NCBI GenBank assembly: GCA_945868845.1
Contig: CAMBMS010000002.1
Location: forward strand, 62,001-126,000
Direction: 5' to 3'
Length of the DNA: 64,000 nucleotides
DNA from: Asaia bogorensis
GTDB lineage: Bacteria; Pseudomonadota; Alphaproteobacteria; Acetobacterales; Acetobacteraceae
Shown: piece after piece, positions 52,421 through 56,881 of the stretch
How positions within the stretch are numbered: the stretch's first letter is position 1
How the letters are laid out: each line of letters opens with the position of its first letter
The notes under the pieces: generated by a model
Told to the model about the DNA's origin: nothing
The model's database searches: none
The model's input: only the letters and a program-made list of their open reading frames with translations
Made by a program: the position numbers and the translations under genes

Positions 52421-53185
52421 ATGAATCCCGACATCGCATTGAAGGTGTTCTGGCAGCCTGGCTGAACGAGTTGTCTGAAACTCAAGGAGTTTCTCGCGGT
52501 CCGTGCGATCGTGTTCGATTCGATTAACGTGCTGGAAGACCCTGACGGAATGGCGGAGCTACGCCGGTTGGGTGCGCGTTCCGTGCCTGTACTGTCGCGC
52601 GGTAACGACTACACATTTGCACAGAATATTGCCGCGGTGGTCACGTTCCTTGACCTACAGGAAACGACCGGGCCGTTGCTGTCAGCGCCAGAGCTGATCG
52701 CCCGTCTCGACTTCTTCATCGCCACCGCACAACGCCTGATCGCGCAGATGCCGGACGATAAGCTGGTGGTGGACGTGCCAAACCGGCCGCGCAGCTACCG
52801 CATGCTCGGCCATCATATTTTCCGCATTCCCGAAGTGTTTCTCGATGTCGCGCAGGGCGCGACCCTAGAGTATGAAAGCCTGGTCGGGCCACCGCCGAGC
52901 AGCATGATACGCAGCGCCGATATTTCCGCTTATGGCGAGCAGATTGGTATGCGCCTCGCCGCCTGGTGGGATAGGCAACTTGATAAATCCGGAAAGGAAA
53001 CGGTAAGCACCTATTACGGCCCGCAGACCCTGCATGAAGTGCTGGAACGCACCACTTGGCATTGCGGCCAGCATGTCCGCCAATGGGTAATGCTGCTGGA
53101 TATGCAGGGTGTCACGCCCGATCGCCCGCCCGGGGACGAAAATTTCGCCAAACTGCCGATGCCATCTAATGTCTGGGATGGCTGA
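52421..53185 (+). CDS. Glutaredoxin-DinB fusion with in-frame TGA at the redox cysteine (possible selenoprotein)
   Basis: The ATG at 52421 gives MNPDIALKVFWQPG, then TGA (52463-52465), then TSCLKLKEFLAVRAIVFDSI and an open frame to 53185. Homologs, from memory, read WQPGC-TSC here, so TGA replaces the first Cys of CxxC while the second (C18) is kept. The cis-Pro ARSVPVLSRG is intact. From about 85 a DinB-like four-helix domain follows, with LGHHIF and WHCGQHVRQ as possible metal histidines. With TGA read as Sec the product is 254 residues. Without readthrough, only a GTG start at 52511 could make the DinB part. A hairpin 11 nt past TGA supports Sec; a nonsense mutation remains possible. Confidence 0.6.
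52477..52493 (+). promoter_or_regulatory. Candidate bacterial SECIS hairpin after the in-frame TGA
   Basis: GAAACTC (52477-52483), loop AAG, GAGTTTC (52487-52493): a perfect 7-bp stem with a 3-nt loop, starting 11 nt after TGA. This spacing and the 17-nt size match the minimal E. coli fdhF element as I remember it. The loop lacks the GU and the bulged U of that element. Confidence 0.4.
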
Positions 53186-53221: not shown

Positions 53222-54151
53222 ATGCAAGTCGCCGTCATCGGTGCCGGCCTGATCGGCCGCGCCTGGTCCATCGTTTTTTCCCGCGCAGGCTTTGATGTCG
53301 CGCTATGGGATCCGGTGGATACGGCCATCCCGGCCGCGCTCGATTTCATCGCCGCCCGACTGCCGGAATTGTTCGAGGCCGGCCTAACGAAGGAATCGCC
53401 AGAGAAAATTCTGCCGCGCATCAGGCCCGCCGCCACCCTGGAAGCCGCCCTCGCCGATGCCGAATATGTGCAGGAAAACGGCCCCGAGCGCGTGGATGCA
53501 AAGCAAGAGTTATTCACCCGCCTGGACCGGGCCGCCCGCCCCGAAACCATTCTCGCCAGCTCCACCTCCGGTATCCCAGCCAGCGCCTTTACCGAACATC
53601 TGCCCGGACGCGCGCGCTGCCTCGTCGCCCATCCCGTCAACCCGCCCTATCTTATTCCGCTGGTCGAACTCTGCCCCGCCCCCTGGACCTCGCCGGAGGC
53701 CGTCACGCGCACGCGAGACATCATGACCCGAGCAGGACAAGTGCCCGCCACTATTAACTTTGAGATGGATGGCTTTGCCCTGAACCGCCTGCAAGGCGCA
53801 CTACTGGCGGAGGCATTCCGTATGATCGATGACGGCGCCATCTCGCCAAAAGACCTCGATGCGCTCGTCAAACACGGCCTCGGCCTGCGCTGGAGTTTCA
53901 TGGGCCCGCTGGAGACCATCGACCTCAACGCCCCCGGCGGCCTCGCCGATTATTGCGATCGTTACGGCCCACTCTATGTCAAGATGCAACACCAGATGAC
54001 ACCACGGGAATGGGCTCCTTCCCTTGTCGCCAAACTGCAAGCCGCCCAGCGCGCCGCGCTACCGATAGACAAACAAGGCGAACGCCAGGCCTGGCGCGAC
54101 CGGCGACTAATGGCGTTACTGGCGCACAAGGCCTTGCAGCCGGATGGATAA
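53222..54151 (+). CDS. 3-hydroxyacyl-CoA dehydrogenase family NAD enzyme
   Basis: Single-domain-pair dehydrogenase related to lambda-crystallin/L-gulonate dehydrogenase and L-carnitine dehydrogenase. N-terminal NAD fold: VAVIGAGLIGRAWSIVFSRA then FDVALWDPVD. The active-site region ASSTSGIPASAF and the His motif VAHPVNPPYLIPLVELCPAP are clear. The C-terminal helical domain starts FALNRLQGALLAEAFRMIDD. The 309 residues are typical. It has AGGAGAG upstream of the ATG. It follows the glutaredoxin-DinB gene by 36 nt and may be co-transcribed. Confidence 0.92.
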   Translation: MQVAVIGAGLIGRAWSIVFSRAGFDVALWDPVDTAIPAALDFIAARLPELFEAGLTKESPEKILPRIRPAATLEAALADAEYVQENGPERVDAKQELFTRLDRAARPETILASSTSGIPASAFTEHLPGRARCLVAHPVNPPYLIPLVELCPAPWTSPEAVTRTRDIMTRAGQVPATINFEMDGFALNRLQGALLAEAFRMIDDGAISPKDLDALVKHGLGLRWSFMGPLETIDLNAPGGLADYCDRYGPLYVKMQHQMTPREWAPSLVAKLQAAQRAALPIDKQGERQAWRDRRLMALLAHKALQPDG

Positions 54152-54920: not shown

Positions 54921-55541
54921 CTAATCTCCTCGTAATGCGAAGGCAGCCTTGGCGGCGGGTCGGGCTTTACACGCATCGTAGAAGGTACGGACAGCCGGGA
55001 ATTTATCCACGATCTCCGGCGCGAAACGAAGAAAATAAAGACAAGAAGTAACATTCAGATCGGCGACGGTGAAACGGTTTCCGACGAGATGACCTCCGCT
55101 TTTCGCCAGCGTGCCGTTCAGCACCGCGAGCGCGCCCTCCACCGTGGTCTGGCTGCGTACGAGGATATTGGCGTCGCGCTGGTCTTCGGGTAGGGTCTTA
55201 CCGTGGGCCATTACGGCCTGCGCGTGCGGTTCCAGTTCCCACACGGCCCACAAGGTCCATTGCAGCACCTGCCCTTCCTCGGAAATATTCACCGGCGCGA
55301 GCGGGCCACCATGCTTGCGGGCGAGATAAAGATTGATAGCGAACGATTCCCACAGGATCAGCCCGTCATCGTTGATCACCGGCACATGGCCGTTCGGATT
55401 GATTTTCAGATGCTCTGGTGTACGGCTGCCCTCGGGGCCGGGCTTCACCTCGATATTTTCATAGGGAATTCCAAGTTCTTTTGCCATCCAGAGCGTACGG
55501 ACGGTGCGGGAATAGGGGCTGCCGATCAAGGTCAGGGTCAT
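54921..55541 (-). CDS. Glutathione S-transferase family protein
   Basis: Two-domain GST, 206 residues. Thioredoxin-fold N-terminus: LTLIGSPYSRTVRTLWMAKE with the Ser/Tyr catalytic area, cis-Pro in GHVPVINDDGLILWESFAIN, where ESFAI contacts glutathione. The helical C-terminal domain contains GGHLVGNRFTVADLNVTSCL, the usual N-capping box. It is close in sequence to the next gene (tandem paralogs). Together with the DsbA-like gene it forms a three-gene minus-strand run. Confidence 0.92.
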   Translation of the reverse strand: MTLTLIGSPYSRTVRTLWMAKELGIPYENIEVKPGPEGSRTPEHLKINPNGHVPVINDDGLILWESFAINLYLARKHGGPLAPVNISEEGQVLQWTLWAVWELEPHAQAVMAHGKTLPEDQRDANILVRSQTTVEGALAVLNGTLAKSGGHLVGNRFTVADLNVTSCLYFLRFAPEIVDKFPAVRTFYDACKARPAAKAAFALRGD

Positions 55542-55556
55542 AGGTTCGTTCCTTAT

Positions 55557-56177
55557 TTATTCGCCGCGAAGCGCCCAGGCGGCTTTCGCCGCCGGACGGG
55601 CGAGGGAGGTTTGGTACCAGGCGCGAATACTGGAAAACGGTTCCAGCGCCTGTGGCGTACCACGCAGTAAAAAAACTAGGCCGACGAGGTTCAGGTCGGC
55701 GACGGTAAAGCGGTTGCCGACGAGATGGCCACCGCCCTTAGCGAGCGCGGCTTCTAACACCCGCAAGGGGGCTTTTACGGCTTCCAGGGCTTGCGCAAGA
55801 ATTCTTGAGTCACGCTGCTCGGGCGGATACATGACGGAATGATAGAGCGTGTTGGTGGCGTCACGTTCCAATTCGCATTCCGCCCAGAGCGTCCATTGCA
55901 GTATTTCTCCCTCTTCGTTCAGATTGGCCGGGGCGAGGGGGCCGCCATGCTTGCGCGCCAGATAAAGATTGATGGCGAGTGATTCCCACAGCACCAGCCC
56001 GTCATCGTCGATAACTGGGATGTGGCCATTCGGGTTGATGGCCAGATGTGCTCGTGTGCGGCTGCCGGTGGGGCCAGTCGGAGTATCGACATGCTCGTAT
56101 CCCAGGCCGAGTTCGTTCGCCATCCAGAGTGTGCGCACGGTGCGCGAACGCGCTATGCCAATGATCCTCAGGGTCAT
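55557..56177 (-). CDS. Glutathione S-transferase family protein, paralog
   Basis: A second 206-residue GST, 15 nt upstream of the first and clearly its paralog. Shared stretches are SRTVRTLWMA, HLAINPNGHIPVIDDDGLVL, NLYLARKHGGPLAP and GGHLVGNRFTVADLN. The differences concentrate in the C-terminal substrate pocket (for example LVFLLRGTPQALEPFSSI against LYFLRFAPEIVDKFPAV), so substrates probably differ. It is 2 nt downstream of the DsbA-like gene. Confidence 0.92.
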   Translation of the reverse strand: MTLRIIGIARSRTVRTLWMANELGLGYEHVDTPTGPTGSRTRAHLAINPNGHIPVIDDDGLVLWESLAINLYLARKHGGPLAPANLNEEGEILQWTLWAECELERDATNTLYHSVMYPPEQRDSRILAQALEAVKAPLRVLEAALAKGGGHLVGNRFTVADLNLVGLVFLLRGTPQALEPFSSIRAWYQTSLARPAAKAAWALRGE

Positions 56178-56179
56178 GG

Positions 56180-56881
56180 TTATTCCGCCGCTTGGGCCGG
56201 ACGTTCGATGAGGGCTTTGTGGGCATGCCGAAACGCCTGCGCCATCTGCTCGGCCGGCTGGGCGCCGGAGAAAAGGAAGTGCCCTTGGAGGAAAAAGGAC
56301 GGCACGCCGGAAACACCGGCAGACCGGCTAGCGTGCTCTTGCGCCTGGATCTGCGCCAGATATTTGTTGGTGGCCAGGCAGGCGGCGGTGGAAGCGCGAT
56401 CCATCCTGCCCTGCTCGGCGCAGGCGAGCAGAATTTCGTCGGCGCCGATATCGCCACCATTGAGGAAGTAAGACTGGAATAGAGCTTCCACCACCAAATC
56501 CTGCACATCTTGCTCGCCGGCCAGCGCGATCAGGCGATGGGCTTTCAACGTATTCGGCGTGCGGGTCAGGCGGTCCAGGTGGAATTCCAGGCCCGCGCCG
56601 GCGGCGGCCTGCGTGATGCGGGCATCGAGCTGCTGGGATTTTTCCCAACTGCCGAATTTGGCGATGCGATAGGCGCGGCGTTCCACGCCTTCCAGTGGCA
56701 TATCAGGGTTCAGTTGGAACGGGTTCCAGTGAACGTCGAAGCGAATGCCTTCCGGCGCGAGTATTGCCAGGGCGCGTTCCATGTGGCGCTTGCCGACATA
56801 GCACCAGGGGCAGATGACATCCGAAACGATGTCGAGGCGCATTAGCGCCGTCTCGGCGGCTTGTTCGATATCCCTATTCAT
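56180..56881 (-). CDS. DsbA family oxidoreductase (FrnE-like)
   Basis: Thioredoxin-like DsbA-type protein of the cytoplasmic FrnE/2-hydroxychromene isomerase group. The redox motif CPWC is in DIVSDVICPWCYVGKRHMER; the partner motif WNPFQLNPDMPLEG follows. The cis-Pro GVSGVPSFFLQGHFLFSGAQ is near residue 190. No signal peptide is seen. The start at 56881 includes an N-terminal MNRDIEQAAETAL; a later Met (LMRLDIVSD) is possible. Transcribed first in the run with the two GSTs, which suggests a shared thiol or xenobiotic function. Confidence 0.9.
   Translation of the reverse strand: MNRDIEQAAETALMRLDIVSDVICPWCYVGKRHMERALAILAPEGIRFDVHWNPFQLNPDMPLEGVERRAYRIAKFGSWEKSQQLDARITQAAAGAGLEFHLDRLTRTPNTLKAHRLIALAGEQDVQDLVVEALFQSYFLNGGDIGADEILLACAEQGRMDRASTAACLATNKYLAQIQAQEHASRSAGVSGVPSFFLQGHFLFSGAQPAEQMAQAFRHAHKALIERPAQAAE

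Follow-up and report, generated by a model that had tools for sequence, protein, structure and literature searches.

An inventory published in 2026 (PMC13188914) distinguishes 119 prokaryotic selenoprotein families or subfamilies, and its Table 1 holds the glutaredoxin Grx (PF00462, UxxC) and UXX-star. The protein described here is encoded in a window of 64,000 nucleotides from Asaia bogorensis, which is the whole stretch of DNA analysed and corresponds to C2:62001-126000 of a 3.2-Mb draft genome of 49 contigs, estimated to be 100% complete. Like the Grx of that table, it would carry selenocysteine (Sec) at the first active-site position of a glutaredoxin domain. The UXX-star families and the HUGP/GUXX-star fusion of NCBIfam are glutaredoxin-like (seleno)proteins, one of them a fusion, whose family names do not include DinB; the window protein scores 29.0 of the 66 bits required by UXX-star model NF041212 and 18.8 of the 325 required by NF045501, below both cut-offs. 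Among solved chains compared by sequence profile, the glutaredoxin 7c10 comes closest (E 1e-13); it is titled 'Dithiol cGrx1' and is presumably the Clostridium oremlandii selenoprotein. Its 84 residues form a chain of their own, whereas the glutaredoxin of the window is fused to a DinB-type domain. Titles of papers on the Clostridium oremlandii protein appear in the reference list of PMC13188914.

The second half of the protein has its described counterparts among DinB/YfiT proteins. BstA-H and mycothiol S-transferase have the four-helix fold in common with it, and BstA-H also shares three conserved histidines (PMC5815605), identified as H67, H160 and H164 in B. subtilis BstA, while mycothiol S-transferase has two His and one Asp (PMC10950700) in place of the three His of the window protein. 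All eight Bst enzymes lost their activity in the presence of EDTA (PMC5815605). The portions of PMC5815605 and PMC10950700 available to us mention neither a glutaredoxin domain nor Sec in these proteins, and the solved DinB-type chains listed have 6-20% sequence identity to the window protein. Glutathione S-transferase (GST) likewise places a redoxin domain ahead of a helical domain, although the fusion described here is built from different parts. The same two domains do occur together in Cys-type Grx-DinB proteins, which are annotated as 'DinB family protein' or 'glutaredoxin domain-containing protein'. They are found in 13 plasmid records at 31-42% identity to the window protein; in five of these records, four of them annotated at the gene, the codon is TGC or TGT instead of TGA.

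The DinB fusion is absent from Table 1 of PMC13188914, the main text of which does not mention DinB, and neither do the available portions of PMC9312934, PMC2398784, PMC5029168, PMC12013277 and PMC8124441. Searching the open full-text literature for selenoprotein together with DinB returned only papers that by title concern mirror-image PCR and the E. coli mercury transcriptome. The original prediction, made from the DNA letters, had stated that a Sec-containing glutaredoxin-DinB fusion was not known as described, which agrees with the tabulated inventory and with these searches within their scope. Sec-Grx-DinB is, within the searched open literature, an undescribed selenoprotein family or subfamily, in which the Sec glutaredoxin belongs to a two-domain architecture that is new.

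The gene extends on the plus strand, as do all features given below, from ATG 52421 to the terminal stop TGA at 53183-53185 (52421..53185), as delimited by translation, Pfam and same-frame homologs. Translation finds one internal stop in it, so that the frame is open except for TGA 52463-52465 in the context WQPG-*-TSC, as originally noticed. Comparison of this codon between homologs leads us to propose that it encodes Sec as residue 15 of a 254-residue product, at position 1 of a UxxC motif, and we consider it highly probable from the sequence comparisons below that the UGA is read in this way and that the gene encodes a selenoprotein. The resolving cysteine of the UTSC pair, Cys18 (52472..52474), is conserved in Sec and Cys forms alike. 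A plain listing of open reading frames without recoding recovers only a 224-aa ORF from GTG 52511 that is missing the redox motif; since an ORF listed in this way begins past the Sec codon, without the active site, genes of this type are probably misannotated. No clear Shine-Dalgarno sequence precedes the ATG of the window gene, in difference to many homologs, which have one. The co-directional gene that follows (53222..54151) is 3-hydroxyacyl-CoA dehydrogenase-like by Pfam PF02737/PF00725, begins 36 bp past the stop codon, and is possibly in a single transcript with the Grx-DinB gene. Close by, at 54921-56881 of the window, a tandem pair of GST genes lies beside a DsbA-like gene.

The amino-terminal part of the protein matches Pfam PF00462 glutaredoxin at residues 8-58 (52442..52594) with 35.4 bits (cut-off 22.9), and the fold extends to about residue 80, structure matches covering residues 4-80. 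Its glutaredoxin features are the C/UxxC motif at residues 15-18 and Pro56, present in 115/115 loci, which we take to be the cis-Pro loop proline of the glutaredoxin fold. An AlphaFold2 model from 31 sequences, with Sec entered as Cys, has a mean pLDDT of 95.6 and a pTM of 0.91, and delimits together with the match to 6iz2_B a DinB/YfiT-type four-helix domain at about residues 86-241 (52676..53143). The best Foldseek matches are DinB/YfiT chains (6iz2, E 5.6e-5, TM 0.81 by target length). VIA-align 2, for which Z values under about 13 may be common among helical bundles, gives Z 15.2 for 6iz2_B (rmsd 2.4, 143 aligned), 14.9 for 3di5 and 13.3 for the mycothiol-dependent maleylpyruvate isomerase 2nsg; on the redoxin side it gives Z 13.0 for the thioredoxin-like BC3987 (3zit_B, residues 4-80), and NrdH structures match as well. 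Alignments with GST chains span residues 4-252 but are weak, at Z about 9.5 and, for most of the chains, an rmsd near 5. Pfam DinB_2 (PF12867) scores 18.1 on the window protein against a cut-off of 24.8, while among four Cys relatives two pass (42.2 and 28.8) and two fail (17.3 and 23.4). Since the score of the window protein is under the cut-off, the modelled carboxyl-terminal domain is called here a DinB-type fold rather than a Pfam-confirmed member.

Seven residues of this domain, His132, His214, His218, Arg210, Gln217, Arg220 and Gln221, are invariant in 115/115 loci. By comparison with the DinB proteins of PMC5815605 and PMC10950700, as far as these are available to us, His132 (52814..52816) and the His214-x3-His218 pair (53060..53074) are likely the metal ligands.

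These features suggest a mechanism. At UGA 52463-52465 the ribosome would insert Sec, brought by a SelB docked on a SECIS hairpin that has its loop 36 nt further downstream. The product would join a glutaredoxin domain, with UTSC as its redox pair, to a DinB/YfiT-type (S-transferase-like) domain. His132, His214 and His218 may hold a metal that activates or positions a thiol of low molecular weight (probably glutathione) or an adduct of this thiol. Reduction or resolution of the mixed disulfide or thiol adduct would fall to the Sec selenolate, Cys18 acting as the resolving residue. Thiol transfer or adduct reduction is suggested by the redoxin half taken together with the metal-ligand pattern of the metal-dependent thiol-transferase superfamily; we tentatively favour a Sec-dependent thiol transferase or reductase in which a metal-positioned thiol or adduct meets reduction by Sec and Cys18. 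A shared fold alone is no proof of function.

Two other activities of a selenoprotein come into question. The glutaredoxin could be a plain thiol-disulfide reductase of a client protein or of ribonucleotide reductase, with the DinB-type domain serving only for binding or dimerisation. No NCBIfam model (June 2026) scores as high as its cut-off for the window protein or for four Cys relatives; the best-scoring glutaredoxin models, all under cut-off, are of the YruB and NrdH types, and for this reason the reductant could be thioredoxin reductase instead of glutathione. These scores and the matching NrdH and thioredoxin-like structures speak for a plain reductase, which we nevertheless find rather unlikely, as a mere scaffold would not need three histidines and R210, Q217, R220 and Q221 kept in 115/115 loci. 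The second possibility, that a catabolic intermediate is the substrate of a selenoperoxidase or a reductive dehalogenase, draws on the gene neighbourhood: the window has an amidohydrolase, a D-isomer 2-hydroxyacid dehydrogenase, the 3-hydroxyacyl-CoA dehydrogenase, the two GST genes and the DsbA-like gene nearby, and homologs elsewhere lie beside amidase and isochorismatase genes, or beside hydantoinase- and VOC-like genes (the latter identified by reading the sequences). The neighbourhoods differ between loci, however, which makes this activity unlikely. Across 51 loci (the window and 50 of the best 80 loci kept by dereplication) no neighbour gene recurs in a way that would indicate a substrate; the gene itself and its antisense frame make up the two largest clusters, and the next one spans 9 loci.

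The reading of the UGA as Sec, preferred here whichever of these activities applies, was assessed on the codon itself. Among 115 scorable loci of 116, the window's own included, codon 15 is TGA in 99, TGC in 10 and TGT in 6; L117 was left out of the count because its match begins at residue 29. In each TGA locus the match contains a single stop, located at the residue-15 column, and the 99 TGA loci comprise 96 distinct sequences, three loci being present in both collections. Of the first 36 loci with the codon read, 20 had TGA and 16 a Cys codon (TGC or TGT), in every case exactly at residue 15. The expectation of the original prediction that related proteins have Cys there thus holds for 16 forms, and the alignment of homologs that it put forward as a check gives TGA in the other 99. 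This proportion overstates the share of Sec, since 80 loci are the most similar of at least 516 relatives confirmed in an alignment-based scan of species genomes; the class sample is fairer, with one TGA in 19 of 33 matches and no stop in 14. Those 33 matches come from 32 of 385 genomes, own included (E <= 1e-15).

The spread of the gene is patchy, through loss or transfer: in the window's own family only the genome of the window (G000) and G015 hold it among 36 genomes, own included, and five further genomes of this family in the class and phylum samples have no match. The phylum-wide sample gave 2 matches in 398 genomes, one being the window's own, and the single genome of the same genus in the search (G001, 85% complete) shows no match whatever to the Grx-DinB protein. 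In the sample of relatives, 4 of 60 genomes matched, own included; two matches are good (69% and 50% identical, a single TGA each), and a weak 25% match with TAG in G050 was discounted as a homolog. Among the best 80 of at least 516 relatives, the holders of the TGA form include Acidisphaera sp. S103, Reyranella soli, Reyranella aquatilis, Vineibacter terrae, Enhydrobacter aerosaccus ATCC 27094 and Desertibaculum subflavum, and a few records among the matches listed belong by title to other groups (Nitrosovibrio, Betaproteobacteria, Gammaproteobacteria and Immundisolibacterales MAGs).

After dereplication (<85% nucleotide identity), 69 Sec genes remain, whose proteins have a median pairwise identity of 52% and a minimum of 38%. 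Cys18 is present in 99/99 Sec and 16/16 Cys forms, and the base after the UGA or Cys codon is A in 99/99 Sec forms vs 7/16 Cys forms. One Sec/Cys change is needed on a tree of 85 proteins, with the Sec forms on one side of a branch of support 79; the tree was made by a quick method, several Cys rows are long-branched, and the Cys forms are few (16) and diverse. One genome (G341) has both a TGA copy (L050) and a stop-free copy (C25:5256-6011), with 46% and 43% identity to the window protein.

Bacterial SECIS elements are defined in PMC13188914 by a stem of 4-16 bp, a loop of 3-9 nt with G within its first two positions, a spacing of 16-37 nt and a minimum free energy <= -7.5 kcal/mol. The SECIS-like hairpin of the window (52495..52513), CGCGGUC-CGUGC-GAUCGUG, agrees with the published values for stem, loop, G and spacing: it has a 7-bp stem and a 5-nt loop with G second, then U, and the loop begins after 36 nt following the UGA. 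Its folding energy is -7.0 to -7.1 kcal/mol alone and -13.8 for the 48 nt after the UGA, against the published limit of -7.5. Plain folding energy was rejected as a SECIS test, with means of -11.22 (Sec) and -11.28 (Cys) kcal/mol that do not separate the two forms; the window region is weakly stable relative to shuffles (z -0.24, -1.57, -0.64). Synonymous-codon conservation and pair counts were used instead.

In the 69 dereplicated Sec genes, codons 26, 27, 28 and 29 take the first four ranks among 167 positions for synonymous-codon conservation, with an excess of identical synonymous codons of 1.00, 1.00, 0.96 and 0.93, and codons 26-32 differ from the rest with p = 8.6e-6 (rank test, kinship ignored). 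The 16 Cys genes do not show this signal (p = 0.82, with no more than three positions scorable). RNAalifold finds the hairpin UCGGU/AUCGA with loop CCGUGNG in the Sec set and no structure in the Cys set; the 16 Cys forms together have no SECIS signal, unlike the Sec forms. In 59 distinct rows the Sec helix has 97.3% of cells paired (95.4% in shuffles, 0/500 as high) and changes on both sides at 2/5 pairs (reached by 11/500 shuffles). These counts are biased towards the hairpin, as the structure came out of the very alignment on which they were made and its bases are also under coding constraint. Sliding the partner strand abolishes pairing. A covariance model of the element, built from 45 of 66 loci (46 rows, one locus twice), retrieves in the own genome at E <= 10 only the Grx-DinB gene, 150 of 3449 first-look candidates having been scored. 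Three of the 69 genes (L121, L126 and L140), left out of that model, diverge from the hairpin motif while keeping the TGA, and their SECIS may differ. Judged from these alignments, the predicted hairpin at 52495-52513 is under synonymous constraint in the Sec forms.

A second hairpin just upstream (52477..52493), GAAACUC-AAG-GAGUUUC, is stable in single-sequence folds and of uncertain role. It was rejected as the SECIS core for showing no covariation beyond shuffles: 79.9% of its cells pair, above all 500 shuffles, its covariation score is reached by 127/500 shuffles and its both-side changes by 250/500, and slid versions score equally high.

The genes named in the original prediction as the ones to look for, selA, selB, selD and the tRNA-Sec gene selC, are all present in the own genome. 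SelD (419 bits) and SelA (550 bits) are encoded in a cluster with tRNA-Sec on contig C11; the tRNA scores 73.5 bits (gathering score 47) and is called tRNA-SeC, anticodon TCA, by ARAGORN. This cluster is compact (L021 1402-3875, L013 1501-1592), with selD divergent from selA, and by translation its SelD carries Cys (GGCGCK), not Sec. Two SelB are encoded, at C43:5219-7072 (L005) and C4:168070-169923 (L006), with 397.7 and 359 bits (cut-off 242.25) and 41% mutual identity. Among 33 genomes searched (E <= 1e-60) this is the sole one with two SelB, and the paralogs might prefer different SECIS elements. A family search found two UGSC-type genes (NF041046) with TGA exactly at the GSC motif, one at 143.7 against a family cut-off of 125 and the other at 98.3, under it; they belong to another protein family than Sec-Grx-DinB and are a sign of Sec use. 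The two genes are L150 (C21:44955-45380) and L151 (C43:3722-4129), the latter, below cut-off, adjoining a thioredoxin-reductase-like gene and one selB. Formate dehydrogenase was discarded as an explanation of the Sec system, since the sole above-cut-off match has no internal stop; this alpha subunit is encoded at C3:22860-24887 (L143).

The Sec machinery also follows the codon form across the 33 genomes picked for holding a homolog. With cut-offs of E <= 1e-60 for selB and E <= 1e-10 for tRNA-Sec, 19 of 20 genomes with the TGA form have selB and 18 have tRNA-Sec, against three and three of the 13 genomes with only stop-free forms, two of which (G092 and G402) were classed by absence of a stop with the codon not read (Fisher p 3e-5 for selB and 1.6e-4 for tRNA-Sec, kinship ignored). 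The exceptions are G046 (77% complete), with neither gene, and G401, with no tRNA-Sec at the cut-off used; in G015 the selB match is partial (345/581 positions).

General reassignment of UGA, or its readthrough without selenium by a near-cognate tRNA or with Cys inserted, would leave the frame equally open. The gene itself ends at a TGA, though, tRNA-Sec, selA, selD and selB are present, and the hairpin signal of the TGA forms is absent from the 16 Cys forms, so we hold this to be very improbable. A nonsense mutation of a Cys codon, making the gene a recent pseudogene or leaving only the fragment downstream of GTG 52511, takes a single change from TGC to TGA and, seen from one genome alone, has the 224-aa ORF to its credit. 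Selection on the remaining codons speaks against it. Between the window gene and six relatives, dN/dS over codons 16-254 is 0.16-0.26, with dS >1 and near saturation in all six comparisons, and differences from L027 number 52, 40 and 123 by codon position, mostly third positions; for the 14 codons that precede the TGA, few and noisy, the values are 0.11-0.63 in five of the comparisons and undefined in the sixth. The codons past the TGA are, by this comparison, under purifying selection. With the identical TGA in 96 distinct genes, the SECIS constraint and the Sec machinery encoded in the genome, a nonsense mutation is extremely improbable. An error of sequencing or assembly, conceivable in a draft of 49 contigs, is dismissed as next to impossible with TGA at the same codon in 99 loci (96 distinct) across many assemblies. 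In the alternative first posed, Sec or nonsense, the comparative tests support Sec, as the sel genes, the TGA kept across genes, the constrained SECIS-like hairpin and the purifying selection past the TGA all favour it.

Sec glutaredoxins being already known, the new part is their fusion to a DinB-type domain, in a Grx-DinB family that recurs in many bacteria (32/385 class genomes, 19/33 matches with TGA). The protein may be an analogue of GST made from other parts, a possibility that we put forward with reserve, in which selenolate and metal-bound thiol chemistry would be united in a single chain, in a family so far mainly of Alphaproteobacteria. Its existence raises the question of why a thiol-transferase-like enzyme would use selenium.
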